Source of the DNA: Clostridium sp. MB40-C1
Lineage (GTDB): Bacteria; Bacillota; Clostridia; Clostridiales; Clostridiaceae
Direction: 5' to 3'
Assembly: GCF_030913655.1 (NCBI RefSeq)
Contig: NZ_CP133189.1
Coordinates: forward strand, 2,542,001-2,606,000
DNA length: 64,000 nt
Each line of letters opens with the position of its first letter. Within the stretch, counting starts at the first letter, position 1. The notes beneath the pieces were generated by a model that did no database searches, was not told where the DNA came from, and saw only the letters and a list, made by a program, of their open reading frames with translations. The position numbers and the translations under genes are program-made. Shown piece after piece: positions 18,973-60,168 of this stretch.

Positions 18973-19179
18973 CTATGCGCCTACTTCTTCTCTTATAGAA
19001 ATATTTACTTTATTTTTTAATGATTTATTTTTGTCTTCTACACCATCTCTTAAAATAGGTACTTCCTTGGGAGCATCTATCATAACTCTTACAGTGTTCT
19101 CCTTAACCTTTACAAAAGTTAATTTTATATTTCCGTCTATTACTATACTTTCTCCTGTCCTTACTCCTAATACAAGCAT
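18973..19179 (-). CDS. csrA: Carbon storage regulator CsrA (68 aa)
   Basis: Small homodimeric RNA-binding protein that blocks or alters translation at GGA motifs. The sequence begins MLVLGVRTGESIVIDGN and has the conserved VRVMIDAPKEVPILRDGV segment containing the RNA-binding Arg. It is longer than the usual ~60 residues by a short tail ending REEVGA. The leader AATGTCAGGGAGGATA carries a GGA-rich Shine-Dalgarno region, so autoregulation is possible. The gene lies downstream of flagellin, from which it is now separated by an IS3 element and R1 repeats. Confidence 0.92.
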   Translation of the reverse strand: MLVLGVRTGESIVIDGNIKLTFVKVKENTVRVMIDAPKEVPILRDGVEDKNKSLKNKVNISIREEVGA

Positions 19180-19393
19180 TTAAATATCCTCCCTGACATT
19201 TTTTAAACTCCTTTTTTTGCTTTGTATAATTGCTACCATCCGTGGCATTTCAGTATCTTGAATTTTTGCAAATTTAAGTCTATGTAATATTTACATTTAA
19301 AAACTTTAAATTACAAAATAACCATTTCAATGATAAATATTATCACTGTTAGTTAATTTTGTCAATACATAATCAATAATGAACCATTCAATA

Positions 19394-19508
19394 GAGAATA
19401 GTGAGCAGTGAATAGTGAATAGTATCGGTTGAAATTTATTTTATCAATAAATTTCTTTAATATATTAAAGATTTTGTATCAAAGACAAAATCATCCTTTA
19501 CTATTCTC
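19394..19508. repeat. R1 intergenic repeat, copy 3 (cut by IS)
   Basis: Runs from GAGAATAGTGAGCAGTGAATAG to ATCCTTTACTATTCTC, where the family sequence stops and the IS3-type element begins. The remainder of the 19180-19514 gap is AT-rich DNA without a gene. Confidence 0.7.
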
Positions 19509-19514
19509 GAAAAT

Positions 19515-20653
19515 TGTCAAGAATAATACACAAACAAAACAGTTAATTTCCATAAATATTTTTCTAACCAAAATTCATTTGGTGTTTTATATCCAAGCGA
19601 AGAGTGTATTCTATCACTATTGTAGTACAATTCTATATACTTTATAATTGCACGCTTCGCTTCTTTAAATCTTAATTTTGAGATATCTTTAATTTCTTGT
19701 TTAAGAGTTTTCCAAAATGTCTCTATGGGTTGATTATCATTAGGACTACCTGGTCTAGACATACTTGATTTCATTTTATATTTTATAAGAAGATTCTTTG
19801 TAGAATTTGAAGTGTACTGACATCCACGATCTGAGTGAAATATGAGATCTTCTTTAGGATTAAATCTATAATAAGCCATATTTATAGCTTCATGCACAAT
19901 TTCTTGTCTCATGTGAGGCCTTATACTCCAGCCAACTATTTTGCGAGAAGCAACATCAATTATCCCACTTACATAGAGCTTACTTTTATAAATTTTTATT
20001 TCTGTAATATCAGCACACCAAAGAGTGTTTGGTTCAGTTATTACAAATTTATCTTTAACTAAATTTTCACTAAGATATTCTGCTGGTGTTTTTTTAAGAT
20101 GATTTTTGCGTTTTCTTCCATATTTGTCATACAATCCATTTTTCTTTAATATTGCAGTAATTCTAGGTTCTGTAACCTTGATGTCATTCCTTAAGAGTGC
20201 TTTTCTAATATGAATTCTACCATAGTTTCCACCATGTTTTTTAAAACAATTAATTACTTCCTGTTCAATCTCTAATTCCTTCACTGTTTTGTTTTTGCAT
20301 TTGTGTTTAAATAAACCACTTCTTGACACTTTTAATATTTCAACCTCTTGCTTAAAAATTTCATTTTCTTTCTCAAGTTTTTTTAATTTTGCGTCCTTCG
20401 GACGAAGGTTGCCTCTGCCTACAAATGCTTCATTTCCATAGGTTTTAAACTCATCAATCCATCTGTAAAGCATTATATTATTAATACCAAACTTTTCAGC
20501 TACAATTTTTGGTTTTAAACCTTCATTTATTACTAATTCACATGCTTGAATTTTAAAATCACTTGTATATTTTCTTGCCATAAGTACACAACCTCCATTT
20601 GTTAAAATTATACTATATTTTTAACTGTTTTGGTTGTGTACTTTCACTATACA
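19515..20653. mobile_element. IS3-family insertion sequence
   Basis: About 1.14 kb carrying one transposase gene. The ends are imperfect inverted repeats starting TGT and sharing ACACAA(A/C)CAAAACAGTTAA, with left end TG at 19515 and right end CA at 20653. No convincing target duplication is visible. It separates flagellin from the distal csrA and lies against R1 repeat sequence, so it probably jumped into an R1 copy. Confidence 0.85.
19517..20581 (-). CDS. IS3-family transposase (single-frame fusion)
   Basis: 354 residues. The N-terminus is a helix-turn-helix and leucine-zipper region like OrfA (MARKYTSDFKIQACEL, then LKKLEKENEIFKQEVEILK). The C-terminal part is the OrfB DDE integrase core: Asp in WCADITEIK, Asp in HSDRGCQYTS, Glu in NDNQPIETFWKTLKQE. 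Normally OrfA and OrfB overlap and are joined by a programmed -1 frameshift. Here EILK runs directly into VSRSG of OrfB in one frame, so the usual ~30-residue linker with the frameshift site is missing. All three catalytic residues are present. The stop lies in the left terminal repeat. Confidence 0.92.
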   Translation of the reverse strand: MARKYTSDFKIQACELVINEGLKPKIVAEKFGINNIMLYRWIDEFKTYGNEAFVGRGNLRPKDAKLKKLEKENEIFKQEVEILKVSRSGLFKHKCKNKTVKELEIEQEVINCFKKHGGNYGRIHIRKALLRNDIKVTEPRITAILKKNGLYDKYGRKRKNHLKKTPAEYLSENLVKDKFVITEPNTLWCADITEIKIYKSKLYVSGIIDVASRKIVGWSIRPHMRQEIVHEAINMAYYRFNPKEDLIFHSDRGCQYTSNSTKNLLIKYKMKSSMSRPGSPNDNQPIETFWKTLKQEIKDISKLRFKEAKRAIIKYIELYYNSDRIHSSLGYKTPNEFWLEKYLWKLTVLFVYYS

Positions 20654-20707
20654 ACTTTCCTCTATTAACCATTCTTTATTCTCTCTTCTCTAACTAAGTT
20701 CTCTATA

Positions 20708-20780
20708 AAAAATGAAAGGTTTTGTCCCAAAGACAAAACCCTCCTTTACTATTCACTATTCTCTATTAACTATTCTCTAA
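20708..20780. repeat. R1 intergenic repeat, partial copy 4
   Basis: Only the right half of the family is present (AGACAAAACCCTCCTTTACTATTCAC and TCTCTATTAACTATTCTC), next to the IS right end and just below the flagellin stop. Confidence 0.55.
20715..20741 (-). terminator. Terminator of flagellin
   Basis: Hairpin GGTTTTGT / ACAAAACC with loop CTTTGGG on the minus strand, followed by TTTCATTTTTT, about 50 bp after the flagellin stop. It lies inside an R1 repeat, so the repeat provides the terminator. Confidence 0.65.
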
Positions 20781-20790
20781 CCCAAGCCAA

Positions 20791-21969
20791 TTATCTTAAT
20801 AATTGAAGAACTCCTTGTGGAGCTTGATTAGCTTGAGCAAGCATTGCTTGAGCCGCTTGTTGAAGTATGTTATTCTTTGAGAATTCCATCATTTCTTTGG
20901 CCATATCTACATCTCTAACTCTTGATTCTGATGCTTGTAAGTTTTCAGAAGAAGTATTTAAGTTATTTATTGTATGCTCTAATCTATTTTGATAAGAACC
21001 TAACTTAGATCTTTCTGCTGATACTGTTTGAATAGCATTGTTAATTGTAGTAATAGCTTTTGATGCTTTTTCTTGTGAAGATACATTAATACCTACTTCC
21101 TTACTTATCTCTCCTTTAGCCACAGCAGTATCAGCTGGTACTGCACCTGTTGCATCTAAATCAGCAGCTAAATCAGTTCCTTTTTCTACTTCTACCCTTA
21201 CTGCTCCAGTAGATTTTAAAGCTTTTACAATATCAGCTTTTGAAGCTGTAATTTTACCAGCATTAGTGTCATCTCCTGCAGCTTGAGCTAATGTAACTGT
21301 TATAGTTTGTCCATCATCACTTAATTTAGCTGTTGTTTTTTCAACTGCTTCAGCTTTTGTACCTTTTAAAGTTTCGTACTTTATTGTAATTTCATTTTCT
21401 GTTAGGTTTTTAACAGATACACCTGTTACACCTTTTACCTCTGCTTTTTCACCAATTACACCTGCTACATTCAAGCTTTTAGCATCCATAGCGTTAATTT
21501 CTAATGTAATATCTTGTCCTTGATTAGCACCAATATGGAATTTAGCCTTGAAATCTCCACCTAAAAGATTTTGAGTGTTAAATTCAGTTGTATCAGCTAT
21601 TCTTGTAAGTTCTTGTGATAATTGATCTACTTCCTTTTGGATTTCACTTCTATCAACATCTACATTAGTATCATTTGAAGATTGTACTGAAAGTTCTCTC
21701 ATTCTTTGAAGTATTGAATGAGATTCTGTTAGTGCTCCTTCTCCTGTTTGGATTAATGAAATACCATCTTGAGCATTTCTTGAAGCTTGGTCAAGTCCTC
21801 TGATTTGTCCTCTCATTTTTTCAGATATAGCTAATCCTGCAGCGTCATCTCCAGCTCTATTTATTCTTAAACCTGAGCTTAATTTCTCCATTGACTTTCC
21901 AGATTTAGTAGTTCCTACCCCTAATTGTCTGTGTGCATTCATAGCATTCATATTGTGATTAATAATCAT
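20791..21969 (-). CDS. hag: Flagellin
   Basis: Filament subunit of 392 residues. The conserved N-terminal D0/D1 helix region (MIINHNMNAMNAHRQLG, SSGLRINRAGDDAAGLAIS) and C-terminal helix (ASESRVRDVDMAKEMMEF, ending QAPQGVLQLLR) flank a Thr/Ala/Lys-rich variable region at about residues 150-300, the surface-exposed part. The leader has a strong RBS (GGGAGG) and two GGA motifs, one in a hairpin, that look like CsrA sites. Genes on either side are csrA copies. Flagellin-associated fliW and fliD are not in the window. Confidence 0.96.
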   Translation of the reverse strand: MIINHNMNAMNAHRQLGVGTTKSGKSMEKLSSGLRINRAGDDAAGLAISEKMRGQIRGLDQASRNAQDGISLIQTGEGALTESHSILQRMRELSVQSSNDTNVDVDRSEIQKEVDQLSQELTRIADTTEFNTQNLLGGDFKAKFHIGANQGQDITLEINAMDAKSLNVAGVIGEKAEVKGVTGVSVKNLTENEITIKYETLKGTKAEAVEKTTAKLSDDGQTITVTLAQAAGDDTNAGKITASKADIVKALKSTGAVRVEVEKGTDLAADLDATGAVPADTAVAKGEISKEVGINVSSQEKASKAITTINNAIQTVSAERSKLGSYQNRLEHTINNLNTSSENLQASESRVRDVDMAKEMMEFSKNNILQQAAQAMLAQANQAPQGVLQLLR

Positions 21970-21975
21970 AGTGTA

Positions 21976-22010
21976 AAACCTCCCTGATTTTCTTTAGCAC
22001 GTCCCTGTGC
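21976..22010 (-). promoter_or_regulatory. Putative CsrA-binding leader of flagellin
   Basis: Upstream site: GCAC-AGGGAC-GTGC hairpin at 22010-21997, whose hexaloop fits the CsrA loop pattern ANGGA. Downstream site: TCAGGGAGGT at about 21990-21980, covering the Shine-Dalgarno sequence. Two spaced GGA sites, one over the SD, is the layout known for Bacillus subtilis hag. Binding here is inferred. Confidence 0.65.
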
Positions 22011-22025
22011 ATTTTTTATATTTTC

Positions 22026-22045
22026 AAAAGTCATTAATGACTTTT
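22026..22045. terminator. Short palindrome between csrA and flagellin
   Basis: Perfect 20-bp palindrome AAAAGTCATTAATGACTTTT about 20 bp past the proximal csrA stop. It can act as a weak terminator or processing hairpin between csrA and hag. Confidence 0.45.
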
Positions 22046-22063
22046 AAATCAAATTAATTTAAT

Positions 22064-22222
22064 TTACTTATTTTTATCTTCTACTCCATCTCTTAAAACA
22101 GCTATGTCCTTTGGAGCATCTATTGCAACTCTTATAGTGTTTTCCTTAACCTTTACAAAAGTTAACTTTACATTTTCACCTATGTTGATTGTTTCTCCAG
22201 TTTTTATTCCTAGTACAAGCAT
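22064..22222 (-). CDS. csrA: Carbon storage regulator CsrA (52 aa, second copy)
   Basis: A 52-residue protein read directly from the minus strand: it begins MLVLGIKTGETINIGEN and ends AVLRDGVEDKNK. It matches the distal CsrA over nearly its full length but stops about 16 residues earlier. The RNA-binding segment IRVAIDAPKD is intact. RBS AAGGAGG lies 9 bp from the ATG, and the leader has three GGA triplets. It sits directly upstream of flagellin on the same strand, 94 bp away, the usual csrA-hag order in Firmicutes. Confidence 0.88.
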   Translation of the reverse strand: MLVLGIKTGETINIGENVKLTFVKVKENTIRVAIDAPKDIAVLRDGVEDKNK

Positions 22223-28504: not shown

Positions 28505-28656
28505 TTTTATCCGAAAAATAAAATACATTAATTTTACTCTCTACTAGCGAGTGAAATTAATGCATGTACAAAAAAACATAATGCAATATTCACTCGTAGT
28601 CGGAATTTTACGGCTTCCGGTAGAAACTCCTTGCCATATTCAAGGGATATACAAGT
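28505..28656 (-). promoter_or_regulatory. Purine (guanine) riboswitch of guaB
   Basis: Aptamer at 28656-28592. P1 is formed by ACTTGTA and TACGAGT, and the junction contains the conserved ATATGG, GTTTCTACC and CCGTAAA segments. The nucleotide that pairs with the ligand is C (in CGACTACG), predicting guanine rather than adenine. Downstream, a terminator hairpin (28562-28526, CATTAATTTCACTCG arm) is followed by TATTTTATTTTT. The P1 3' strand can pair with the terminator's 5' arm (CGAGTGAA with TTTCACTCG), so guanine binding should favour termination: an OFF switch. Confidence 0.95.
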
Positions 28657-28789
28657 TCATAATAACAATTTTTATTAAATTTTTTGTTTCATTTAATTTT
28701 TTATTAAGTTTTATTTTATTTCAAATTTTGAATTTTGTCAATTACAATTCTGCTTTTTTTGATAACAAACTTGCAAAACACAAACTTTT

Positions 28790-38300: not shown

Positions 38301-38470
38301 TTAATGTTTTCCACTTTCTAATTCTCTTTTTATCTTTATGACATTCTCTTCTGAAAGTCCTGAAGTTTCAATAACAAACTTTTCTTCCATACCAGCTTTT
38401 AATAATTTTTTTGCAACTTCTATTGCTTTTTTTATTTCTCCTTCTTTTAGTCTTCCTCTTCTCCCCAGTA
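38301..38470 (-). pseudogene. C-terminal remnant resembling a PD-(D/E)XK (Rpn-type) nuclease
   Basis: Minus-strand codons read GRRGRLKEGEIKKAIEVAKK, then LLKAGMEEKFVIETSGLSEE and NVIKIKRELESGKH with a stop at 38303-38301. The pattern (EVAKKLLKAGM ... TGLS..I) is that of C-terminal tails of Rpn / PD-(D/E)XK transposase-associated proteins. No start or nuclease domain remains. The upstream end merges into palindromic element PR3. Confidence 0.6.
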
Positions 38471-38774
38471 TACATATTAGACTATATTACTTATAAAGAA
38501 GCTAAGGCATAGGAATAAGGTTTTCTTATATATATAGTTAGCCAATTAAACTTTGAAGTAGCAACTAGAAATACTTAAGGTGGAGGTTTCTAAAAATGCG
38601 TAATTGTCGGAACGGACTCCGACAGCCGAGCTGGGGAATGGACTCCCCATAGCGAGGGTAGCATTTTTAGAAGAATACACCTTTAGTTTTCTTTGCCTTC
38701 TGAAGGTTTAATGGATAACTACATATATTTAGAAAAACCTATTTCTATGCCGTTACTCATTCCGTCACAACATT
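38446..38774. repeat. Large palindromic element PR3, copy 1, with twin hairpins
   Basis: About 330 bp; the outer arms are imperfect inverse complements (GCTAAGGCATAGGAAT side with TATGCCGTTACTC side). The centre (38589-38671) folds as an outer stem TCTAAAAATGC/GCATTTTTAGA enclosing hairpin A (TGTCGGA, loop ACGGAC, TCCGACA) and hairpin B (TGGGGA, loop ATGGAC, TCCCCA). A second copy is at 58807-59136. The element ends 3 bp from the stop of the NfnB-like gene. Confidence 0.8.
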
Positions 38775-38777
38775 TTT

Positions 38778-40166
38778 CTATTGTTTATTTTTCAAGTATT
38801 CATCAATTGATTTTGCAGCTTTTTTACCAGCTTCCATAGCAAGTATTACAGTAGCTGCTCCTGTAACAGCATCTCCCCCTGCATAAACTGCATCTTTAGA
38901 TGTCTTACCTGTGTCTTCTTCAGCTACAATACACTTCCACTTATTAATATCCAATCCTTCAGTTGTAGATGGTATTAAAGGGTTTGGTGAAGTGCCTAAT
39001 GACATTATAACAGTATCAACATCCATAACGAATTCAGAGCCTTCTTTAACTTTTGGTCTTCTACGTCCAGACTCATCAGGTTCTCCAAGTTCCATTCTTA
39101 CACATTTCATTCCTTTAACCCAGCCATTCTCATCCGCTATAATTTCTACTGGATTAGTTAGCAAGTCAAAAATAATACCTTCTTCTTTAGCATGATGTAC
39201 TTCTTCTAGCCTTGCAGGAAGTTCTTCCTCAGATCTTCTATAAACTATATGGGTTTCTGATCCAAGTCTTAACGCTGTTCTAGCTGCATCCATAGCAACA
39301 TTTCCACCGCCTACTACAGCAACTTTTTTACCTATCTTTACCGGAGTTGCGTAATCTTCTTTATATGCTTTCATTAAGTTAACCCTAGTTAAAAATTCAT
39401 TTGCAGAAAATACTCCATTAGAGTTTTCTCCAGGTATACCCATGAATTTTGGAAGCCCAGCTCCTGAACCTATAAATATAGCCTCAAACCCTTCCTCTTC
39501 CATTAGTTTATCTACATTAGCAGTTCTACCAACTACAACATTTGTTTCTATTTTAACCCCTAAGCTTTTTATATTTTCAATTTCTGATTTAACTACTGTT
39601 TCCTTCGGAAGTCTAAACTCAGGAATTCCATAAACCAATACTCCTCCTGTTTCATGAAGAGCTTCAAAAATAGTTACATCATATCCTTTTTTAGCTAAAT
39701 CTCCTGCACAAGCAAGACCTGCAGGACCACTTCCTATTACTGCAACTTTTTTATTCTTTTTAATATCTGTCTCAGAAAGATCTATACTGTTTTCTCTTGA
39801 CCAATCTCCTATAAATCTTTCTAGTTTTCCTATAGAAACAGCCTCTCCTTTTATTCCAAGAACACATTTTCCTTCACATTGAGTTTCTTGTGGGCACACT
39901 CTTCCACAAACCGCCGGTAGTGAGCTATATTTTGCTATAACTTTAGCTGCTTTTTCAAATTCTCTTTCCTTTATATGCTGTATAAAAGTTGGTATATCTA
40001 TTGAGACAGGACATCCCTTTACACACAAAGGATTTTTACAATTAAGACATCTATTAGCCTCTGCTACAGCTTCTTCTTCATTATATCCTAAACATACCTC
40101 ATCAAAATTTTTAACTCTTTCTTTAGGATCTTGTTCTCTTACTGGTAATTTCTTCATTTTGTCCAT
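38778..40166 (-). CDS. nfnB: NfnB / glutamate synthase small-subunit-like oxidoreductase
   Basis: 462 residues. N-terminal 4Fe-4S cluster domain (CLNCKNPLCVKGCPVSIDIP, then CGRVCPQETQCEGKCVLG) followed by two dinucleotide domains: FAD site VIGSGPAGLACAGDLAK and NADPH site VVGGGNVAMDAARTALR. With the adjacent FNR-like gene this is the layout of the electron-bifurcating NADH-dependent ferredoxin:NADP+ oxidoreductase. The ATG shares one base with the stop of the upstream gene, and GGAGGTG lies in that gene, so translation is coupled. A glutamate synthase small subunit is the alternative but no large subunit is present. Confidence 0.88.
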   Translation of the reverse strand: MDKMKKLPVREQDPKERVKNFDEVCLGYNEEEAVAEANRCLNCKNPLCVKGCPVSIDIPTFIQHIKEREFEKAAKVIAKYSSLPAVCGRVCPQETQCEGKCVLGIKGEAVSIGKLERFIGDWSRENSIDLSETDIKKNKKVAVIGSGPAGLACAGDLAKKGYDVTIFEALHETGGVLVYGIPEFRLPKETVVKSEIENIKSLGVKIETNVVVGRTANVDKLMEEEGFEAIFIGSGAGLPKFMGIPGENSNGVFSANEFLTRVNLMKAYKEDYATPVKIGKKVAVVGGGNVAMDAARTALRLGSETHIVYRRSEEELPARLEEVHHAKEEGIIFDLLTNPVEIIADENGWVKGMKCVRMELGEPDESGRRRPKVKEGSEFVMDVDTVIMSLGTSPNPLIPSTTEGLDINKWKCIVAEEDTGKTSKDAVYAGGDAVTGAATVILAMEAGKKAAKSIDEYLKNKQ

Positions 40167-58271: not shown

Positions 58272-58445
58272 TTTACTTCTCTCTCTTTCTATTCATTACT
58301 TATAATCCTTTATTTTATCCTTTATTATATATCTTCATGACTAATAGTCAATGTTTTTTATATGTTTTTTATATTTTGTCTTTTTATTCTTTACTCAATT
58401 TAAAAATACATTCATTTATACTTTGAGTAAACACATAATAGAAAA

Positions 58446-58464
58446 ATGTTGCGACGCAACATTA
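58446..58464. repeat. 19-bp perfect palindrome
   Basis: AATGTTGCG-A-CGCAACATT in the 58272-59142 gap, about 175 bp upstream of the TetR start. Its ACAACATT-type end resembles the right end of element PR3. Confidence 0.5.
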
Positions 58465-58530
58465 CTTAGTAACCAGATACCAAGCTAGTGAAAGAGGATT
58501 TTTTTCTGGTGTTAAAAAATCTTTAAATTT

Positions 58531-58572
58531 TAAAAGCAGTTAACGAAACATCTTTTTCATTAACTGCTTTTG
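58531..58572. terminator. Strong hairpin in the TetR-tsaD gap
   Basis: Arms AAAAGCAGTTAA and TTAACTGCTTTT, loop about 16 nt. It would terminate transcription on either strand, though no gene ends here. Confidence 0.6.
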
Positions 58573-58806
58573 GTGTTATTCTTAAAAGAACTGGTAAGCT
58601 CTCAGAGCGATAGCTCAATTGGAGTAGCACTTATCCTAGATTAATTACCTATGCTTTAAAATAACTTTAAAATATTCTTTTGTCCGTTAGGACTTAGAAA
58701 CTTTCTTTAAAAATTTTGTTTCACATCTAAATTTTATATGACCACTCAAATCATGAATAAAGCATTTAAATTCAAAGATTTTCTAACATAAGGAAGAAAA
58801 TCATCC

Positions 58807-59136
58807 TTTAGTCTTCCTCTTCTCCCCAGTATACATATTAAATTATATTACTTATAAAGAAACTAAGGCAGAAGAATTGGATTTTCTTATATATGTAGTT
58901 AGCCGATTAAACTTTGAAGTAGCAATTAGAAGTACTTAAGGTGTAGAATTCTAAAAATCCGTAATTGCAGGAATGGACTCCTGCAGCCAAACTGCGTCAT
59001 GGACGACGCATAGTGAGGGTAGGATTTTTAGAAGGCTACGCCTTTAGTACTTCTTTGCGTGCTGAAGGTTTAATGGATAACTACATATATTTAGAAAAAC
59101 CTATTCTTCTGCCGTTATTCATTACGTCACAACATT
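58807..59136. repeat. Large palindromic element PR3, copy 2, with twin hairpins
   Basis: Same layout as 38446-38774. Core 58950-59032: outer stem TCTAAAAATCC/GGATTTTTAGA, hairpin A (TGCAGGA, loop ATGGAC, TCCTGCA) and hairpin B (TGCGTC, loop ATGGAC, GACGCA). Stem sequences differ from copy 1 but remain paired. The outer arms (GGCAGAAGAAT and its inverse ATTCTTCTGCC) match for over 100 bp. It ends 6 bp from the tsaD stop. Confidence 0.8.
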
Positions 59137-59142
59137 ATTATT

Positions 59143-60168
59143 TTATCTTTCTCCAAGTTTTAAGTTTGGTATAGCATTTAACTCTAAAGATGCTTTTTTT
59201 CCACGTAATAGTTCATAATAAGCAGCACTCCCTATCATTGCTGCATTATCTGTACATAGTATAGGTTCTGGAAACAATACTTTAATTCCCCTTTTAACTC
59301 CTTCTTCTATCATTGTTTGTCTTAAGCAAGAATTAGAAGCTACGCCCCCTGCAATTGCAATCTTATCTACTTGTTTTCTTTTACAAGCAACCATAGCATT
59401 ATCTACTAAAACATCTACCACTGCCTTTTGGAATGAGGCCGCAACATCAGCTTCATTTATGTTTTCGCCCTTCATGTTCATTTTATTTAGATAATTTAAA
59501 ACTGCTGATTTTATTCCACTAAATGAAAAATCTATACAATCTTTTTCATGAAAATTTGCTCTTGGAAAGTTTATAGCTAAGGGATTACCCTCTTTTGAGA
59601 TTTTATCTATTTTAGGACCACCTGGATACCCTAACCCTATAGCTCGTGCGACTTTATCAAAAGCTTCTCCTGCCGCATCATCTCTTGTCTGACCTAAAAC
59701 TTCAAATTCTCCATGATCTTTCATATATACTATAAAGGTATGCCCCCCTGATACAACTAAACATACAAAAGGAGGTTCTAAATCTTCATGCTGTATAAAA
59801 TTAGCACTTATATGACCTTCTATATGATTAACTCCTATTAATGGTATCTCTAATGAATATGCCAAAGATTTAGCATATTGAACACCTACTAATAAAGCTC
59901 CTACAAGACCTGGACCATAAGTTACTCCTACTGCATCTATATCTTTTAAAGTTAAATCTGCTTCATTTAATGCTTCTTCTACCACTACAGAAATAGCCTC
60001 TATATGTTTTCTTGAAGCAACTTCAGGTACTACTCCTCCAAATTTAGTATGTATATCAATTTGTGAAGCTATTACATTTGAAATAACTTTTCTTCCATTT
60101 ACAACTATAGCAGCAGCTGTTTCATCGCAACTTGTTTCTATCGAAAGTATTTTAACATCTTTGTTCAT
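59143..60168 (-). CDS. tsaD: tRNA t6A threonylcarbamoyltransferase
   Basis: 341 residues. With TsaB and TsaE, transfers the threonylcarbamoyl group to A37 of ANN-decoding tRNAs. Begins with [16 protein letters not shown], has the metal motif NHIEGH (two His), VSGGHT, and [12 protein letters not shown]. Universal essential gene. RBS GAGGT precedes the ATG. It starts 13 bp from the end of the ogt gene, so they are cotranscribed. Confidence 0.98.

Follow-up and report, generated by a model that had tools for sequence, protein, structure and literature searches.

The twin-hairpin sequence that occurs twice in the 64-kb window (the whole stretch of DNA analysed) is best read, with a probability of roughly 0.6, as a two-site CsrA-docking RNA that is borne by a MITE, presumably transcribed and presumably bound by CsrA. 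The element that carries it is dispersed through the host genome and has inverted ends, elements with the same core are flanked by target duplications in two other genomes, its GGA-loop fold is conserved, and it co-occurs with csrA. The first-pass annotation had treated a mobile element and a CsrA-binding RNA as alternatives; the evidence is compatible with both at once.

The two matching stretches in the window (38446-38774 and 58807-59136) are 87% identical by BLAST, and re-reading of the sequence recovered the four AYGGAC loops and the compensating stem changes exactly where they had been annotated. In copy 1, hairpin 1 occupies 38605-38624 (loop ACGGAC, 38612-38617) and hairpin 2 occupies 38632-38649 (loop ATGGAC, 38638-38643); in copy 2, the corresponding hairpins lie at 58966-58985 (loop ATGGAC, 58973-58978) and 58993-59010 (loop ATGGAC, 58999-59004), all four being on the plus strand. 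RNAfold gives for both cores the fold that was first described, at about -34 kcal/mol each, and a BLAST reverse match reveals both copies to be imperfect palindromes over ~250 bp. When both strands of the whole window were scanned for perfect stems of at least six Watson-Crick pairs closing an ANGGAN hexaloop, exactly these four hairpins were returned. Across the 64 loop classes of the form A-N-xyz-N, the same kind of scan yields a mean background of 0.78 matches per class over both strands; the class TAA (five matches) exceeds the four of GGA, and three other classes equal it.

The sequence common to the copies reaches well past the borders given at first. Copy 2 is a full element of ~700 bp on the plus strand (about 58441-59140), as judged from the extent common to the host-genome copies and from ends read from the sequence; these ends are TA-like, the right one being TT. 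Its left-end palindrome, AATGTTGCGACGCAACATT, lies at 58445-58463 and resembles a terminator when read on the minus strand. Its right end (59126-59140, minus strand) pairs with the left end in inverted orientation (GTCACAACATTATTA). The list of open reading frames holds none of 80 aa or more inside copy 2, and no transposase was seen there. Copy 1 (38446-38778, plus strand) retains the right end, followed by TA at 38779-38780, and lacks the left end (~360 bp). In general, the full element opens with AATGTTGYNNCGYAACATT, a palindrome, and closes with the inverted half of it, the terminal inverted repeats of the host element are of the AATAATGTTGYGACG type, and inspection by eye hints at a TA target.

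Both copies reported by the first-pass annotation are thus present, but they are not a pair. BLAST against the 3.89-Mb host chromosome returned at least 86 matching stretches, which, once matches arising from the self-palindrome are left out, join into at least 40 places on the strand of the query; this count is a lower bound, as 40 of 91 first-look candidates were scored and further pieces were seen. The core is present at 33 of the 40 places and absent from seven (L034-L040). Ten further host places with the end palindrome, taken at 4 kb each, hold solo palindromes or further pieces, and the end palindrome stands alone, over ~33-37 bp, at five of the host loci (L126, L127, L131, L133 and L134). 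Such a solo palindrome may be a minimal mobile terminator. In the sister species G003, the site orthologous to that of copy 2 carries a short core-less remnant resembling a copy with an internal deletion; in the six other genomes of the genus, of seven compared, BLAST did not find the element at this site. No match was obtained by BLAST against phage and plasmid collections.

Dispersed copies without a transposase gene are a trait of MITEs that the host element shares, with one exception. At L004 (about 2935264-2937156 of the host chromosome, G000:C1), ~1.9 kb contain, in order, ~120 bp of the left end, a broken transposase, the core and the right end. The transposase is IS1182-like and consists of two broken pieces (positions 153-1381 of the oriented locus; about 2935700-2936950 of the chromosome), which match Pfam DDE_Tnp_1 at 1.3e-14 and 5.6e-5 and have IS1182 as their best NCBIfam match, at 120.4 and 39.5 bits, under the cut-off of 270. 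The arrangement may have decayed from an autonomous element or arisen by nested insertion, and no intact version of it was seen.

The RNA at the tip matches a known family. Scanned permissively against Rfam, copy 2 matched TwoAYGGAY (RF01731) at 58915-59065 on the plus strand, over the full model, with 39.2 bits against a cut-off of 43 (E 1.3e-4), and the same permissive scan gave no TwoAYGGAY match in copy 1 at E<=10. The family is defined by adjacent hairpins with AYGGAY loops on a common long outer stem, a trait to which all four window loops conform, and most of the host places score under the curated cut-off: at the gathering cut-off, Rfam reports no TwoAYGGAY in the window or in 20 of the 40 host loci, and at E<=1 RF01731 finds 13 places in the host genome, one above the cut-off (43.9 bits) and 12 below. 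At this threshold RF01731 missed the remaining host cores and had no match in 14 control genomes. A match to sau-19 in copy 2 (58518-58577, 28.4 bits against a cut-off of 80) was dismissed as an AT-rich hairpin. TwoAYGGAY was among the candidate RNAs catalogued in 2010 (PMC2864571), and a paper of 2014 put it forward as an RNA to which CsrA binds in Clostridia, a proposal then awaiting validation (PMC4333381). The statement in the first-pass annotation that a CsrA decoy of such type is not known from Firmicutes therefore falls, since Rfam lists the motif as TwoAYGGAY and its binding by CsrA has already been proposed in print. The accessible portions of open-access papers on TwoAYGGAY contain no word of terminal repeats, target duplications or dispersal, and no mobile CsrA-type RNA was found in the open-access literature searched. 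Neither the RNA family nor its suggested tie to CsrA is new; the mobile vehicles and the dependence on csrA appear to be, as far as these searches reach.

We monitored the conservation of the fold in 36 sequences from 30 genomes, most of them found by RF01731, a model that itself scores AYGGAY loops. When 17 cores were aligned with MAFFT, hairpin 1 fell out of place and RNAalifold retained three pairs; loop-anchored counting was used instead. With each hairpin anchored on an NGA triple chosen by Watson-Crick pairing, a choice that fixes the GA and some of the pairing beforehand and leaves the remainder as evidence, each of the seven pairs of hairpin 1 is Watson-Crick in 32-36 of the 36 sequences, against shuffle means of 13.6-26.7, and two to four Watson-Crick pair types occur per position. 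In hairpin 2, the first three positions are paired in 35-36 of 36 (Watson-Crick in at least 34), and the outer pairs are poorly conserved (Watson-Crick in 9-21 of 36 at positions 4-7). The loop triple is GGA in 34/36 sequences for hairpin 1 and in 32/36 for hairpin 2. Two sequences (L033 and L074) are mis-anchored, and in the 34 that are correctly anchored the loops lie 26-29 nt apart. The earlier claim of selection on the fold is supported by this conservation of a GGA-loop fold over 30 genomes, with the caveat that most of the sequences were retrieved by a loop-scoring model.

It was BLAST that retrieved the 33 host copies, which carry GGA in 61 of their 66 loops; the loops do not vary freely in the other copies. 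They are not invariant, as had first been written: GGA is kept in 31/33 first loops (exceptions L008 and L024) and in 30/33 second loops (exceptions L005, L016 and L026). The host copies also hold 15 pairs with two Watson-Crick types in which both sides have changed. As repair of a palindrome could yield covarying stems without selection, the loops, rather than the stems, are the stronger evidence. With regard to strand, the minimum free energy is lower for the plus strand in 28/33 host sequences and 36/42 others, and single mismatches in a strand-neutral fold are G-T rather than A-C in 52 against 10 instances among host copies and in 13 against 6 elsewhere. Counted by alignment cell, G-T exceeds A-C in the host copies by 120 to 50; per alignment pair there is little contrast (any G-T 34, any A-C 25; inner hairpins 9 and 4). 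Taken together, these figures modestly favour the plus strand as the RNA strand.

The vehicles of the core were examined in genomes with several RF01731 matches (G092, G073, G060 and G683). In G092 and G073, the core sits in elements of mostly 312-313 bp with TGATTA...TAATCA-like ends; the sample comprises 22 copies, 21 of them bounded (L097 is without ends, and L058 is mis-anchored). Target duplications of 5-6 bp flank 13 of the 21 bounded copies (10/13 in G092 and 3/8 in G073), as compared with 41 of 420 mismatched left-right flank pairs. In G060, the ends appear by eye to be GTAAAGCTAAGCC-like, with longer repeats adjoining. In G683, a member of another family, 328-360 bp are common to nine of 12 copies and ~630 bp to the other three, and the ends differ again, with at least two subfamilies. 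Within this one genome, five copies (L159, L164, L165, L167 and L170) differ from the remaining copies in their outer sequence and have the TwoAYGGAY tip in common with them. Thus, the same RNA tip is carried by elements with different ends in different lineages, and the differences in ends and target duplications among lineages suggest different transposases.

The presumed binding partner is encoded in the window. Both of the csrA genes first annotated there were confirmed, one of 68 aa at 18973-19179 and one as a 52-aa open frame at 22064-22222, each on the minus strand, and a third csrA lies elsewhere in the genome. The two genes (18973-22222) flank a flagellin gene (20791-21969, minus strand) and an IS3-like transposase frame (19517-20581), both labels being taken from the translations. 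The AGGGAC hexaloop reported for the flagellin leader was found as GCAC-AGGGAC-GTGC, together with GGGAGG near the start, a layout like that of the two CsrA sites of the Bacillus subtilis hag leader (PMC7652899). According to the available part of the same source, GGA in a hairpin loop forms the core of a CsrA site: SELEX with CsrA selected RUACARGGAUGU, the GGA lay mostly within hairpin loops, six bases made up 44 of 55 loops, most ligand stems had four pairs or fewer, and sites at distances of 10-63 nt are bridged by the protein (PMC7652899). The window loops have the GGA and the hexaloop in common with this site, whereas the full sequence is absent and their stems, at 6-8 pairs, are longer than most; the full ACAAGGATGT loop is present in L113. 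The 26-29 nt between the GGA loops of the core fall within the bridging distance of CsrA (PMC7652899).

Co-occurrence with csrA, detected with PF02599, was followed at three taxonomic scopes. TwoAYGGAY is patchy, being present in 20/194 genomes of the host family, 36/391 of the class and 34/200 of a second family, and per-genome counts are lower bounds, resting on the best <=13, <=7 and <=13 candidates per genome, respectively. In the class, where csrA is found in 125/391 genomes, it accompanies 31/36 TwoAYGGAY-positive against 94/355 negative genomes (P = 2e-12, in statistics that, here and below, treat genomes as independent although they are related). Five positives of the class have no csrA match (G365, G405, G442, G459 and G501), and three of these are <90% complete. 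In the second family, sampled at about one genome per genus, csrA exceeds the cut-off in 33/34 positives against 75/166 negatives (P = 2e-9), the single positive without it being G728. Nearly all genomes of the host family have csrA (165/194), among them 20/20 positives and 145/174 negatives (P = 0.05). Five TwoAYGGAY-positive genomes (G544, G573, G600, G605 and G717) have additional, weaker csrA-like matches. Group II introns, used as a mobile-RNA control in the class, are linked to csrA more weakly than TwoAYGGAY is (67/127 positives against 58/264 negatives), so that part of the TwoAYGGAY-csrA link is general, and the link may reflect flagella or lifestyle instead of CsrA itself. The connection to CsrA drawn by the first-pass annotation is supported by this co-occurrence and by GGA hairpin loops at bridging distance.

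By mechanical ORF calls, 19 of the 40 host copies lie between convergent genes and one between divergent genes; with same-direction neighbours, the element follows the genes in 10/40 and opposes them in 10/40. Among 59 loci elsewhere, called in the same manner, 24 oppose and nine follow same-direction neighbours. Read-through is not favoured by this orientation relative to neighbours, and the role of a cis-regulatory leader, which is Rfam's type label for the family, was dropped because copies often sit between convergent genes or against gene direction. A search of 58380-59200 for sigma-70-like sites gave none on the plus strand and one on the minus strand, where 3.5 would be expected over both strands.

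These observations may be assembled as follows. The element would be MITE-like and gene-less, its body folding as one long hairpin with TwoAYGGAY RNA as the tip. If transcripts arise from the plus strand, the two loops could together hold a single CsrA dimer, and many copies together could constitute a CsrA decoy or a CsrA-tagged RNA. Decoy action would raise flagellin and other CsrA targets, or else the RNA of the element itself might be protected or controlled; the beneficiary could be either the host or the element. A wider version, which we put forward tentatively and hold as possible rather than probable, is that in Clostridia different short mobile-element families each acquired the same two-site CsrA-docking RNA, with transposition spreading the decoys, each amplification shifting the dosage of CsrA, and persistence occurring only where CsrA is present; the Csr RNAs would then have a counterpart borne by transposons.

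It is unlikely, at odds that still deserve attention, that the element is an ordinary palindromic MITE, in which the DNA folds back, the stems covary via hairpin-templated repair, and no protein binds the GGA loops. The palindromic body, the inverted ends and the target duplications all suit such an element, as does the preference for convergent over divergent placement (19 against 1 of 40), which fits simple tolerance of insertions, and copy 2 has no promoter-like site on its plus strand. However, repair alone does not preserve the GGA of the loops over 30 genomes and over vehicles whose ends differ, and the dependence on csrA within one family and the plus-strand bias in energy and wobble pairs both argue against it. 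The link to csrA, together with 33 cores in one genome and GGA in nearly all of their loops, would suit a set of Csr-type decoys adopted by the host, with copies kept because they jointly buffer CsrA, as CsrB does in gamma-proteobacteria. We consider this quite improbable, given the patchy presence of TwoAYGGAY at all three scopes, the seven of 40 host places that lack the core, and the core-less remnant that the sister species carries at the corresponding site.

There is little chance that the paired hairpins work for transposition and not for CsrA, being recognized by a transposase either in the DNA or in the RNA. Mobile elements of several lineages have retained the core, and L004 pairs it with a transposase gene, both of which such a role would explain; yet ends and target duplications vary by lineage, suggesting different transposases, several host copies of the same family are without the core, solo end palindromes exist, and the co-occurrence with csrA is left unexplained.

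The preferred reading, a mobile two-site CsrA-docking RNA, has partial counterparts among known systems. GGA loops at bridging distance are common to the element and to the Csr/Rsm decoys of gamma-proteobacteria (CsrB, RsmZ), from which it differs in having two loops per RNA, many genomic copies and a mobile vehicle, and in being known here from sequence alone. As of 2014, the available part of one paper describes Csr decoy RNAs as known only from gamma-proteobacteria and names Bacillaceae-1 RNA (RF01690), a separate RNA family, as likewise proposed to bind CsrA in Firmicutes (PMC4333381). The CsrA antagonist described for B. subtilis is a protein, FliW, in the available part of PMC7652899. 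With bacterial MITEs the element has in common its shortness, the lack of ORFs, inverted ends and many copies, with probable target duplications in two other genomes, whereas the body here is a conserved RNA fold common to elements with different ends. The IS1182 family is represented by the two broken pieces in L004, below the family cut-off, and copy 2 is without a transposase. IStrons, which unite a group I intron and an IS (PMC4227781, as far as its available part goes), likewise join mobile DNA to a structured RNA; here, the ends are inverted, and Rfam finds no intron in the window or in copy 2, so that the IStron was rejected as an identity.

If TwoAYGGAY does bind CsrA, some Clostridia would carry many mobile decoys, in numbers that differ by species, and the role of this RNA would become testable; the element would then be an example of selfish DNA that makes use of a global RNA-binding regulator. 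Of the new clues, the dependence on csrA within one family is the most useful.

Finally, three further features were recorded alongside the element. A purine riboswitch aptamer lies at 28577-28674 of the window on the minus strand (71.8 bits), and a RAGATH-18 RNA flanks one host copy (L002, 554-617, plus strand, 47.9 bits). Between 46697 and 53167 of the window, on the minus strand, two similar runs of ORFs of ~335, 259 and 379 aa resemble a tandem duplication, as judged by ORF lengths.
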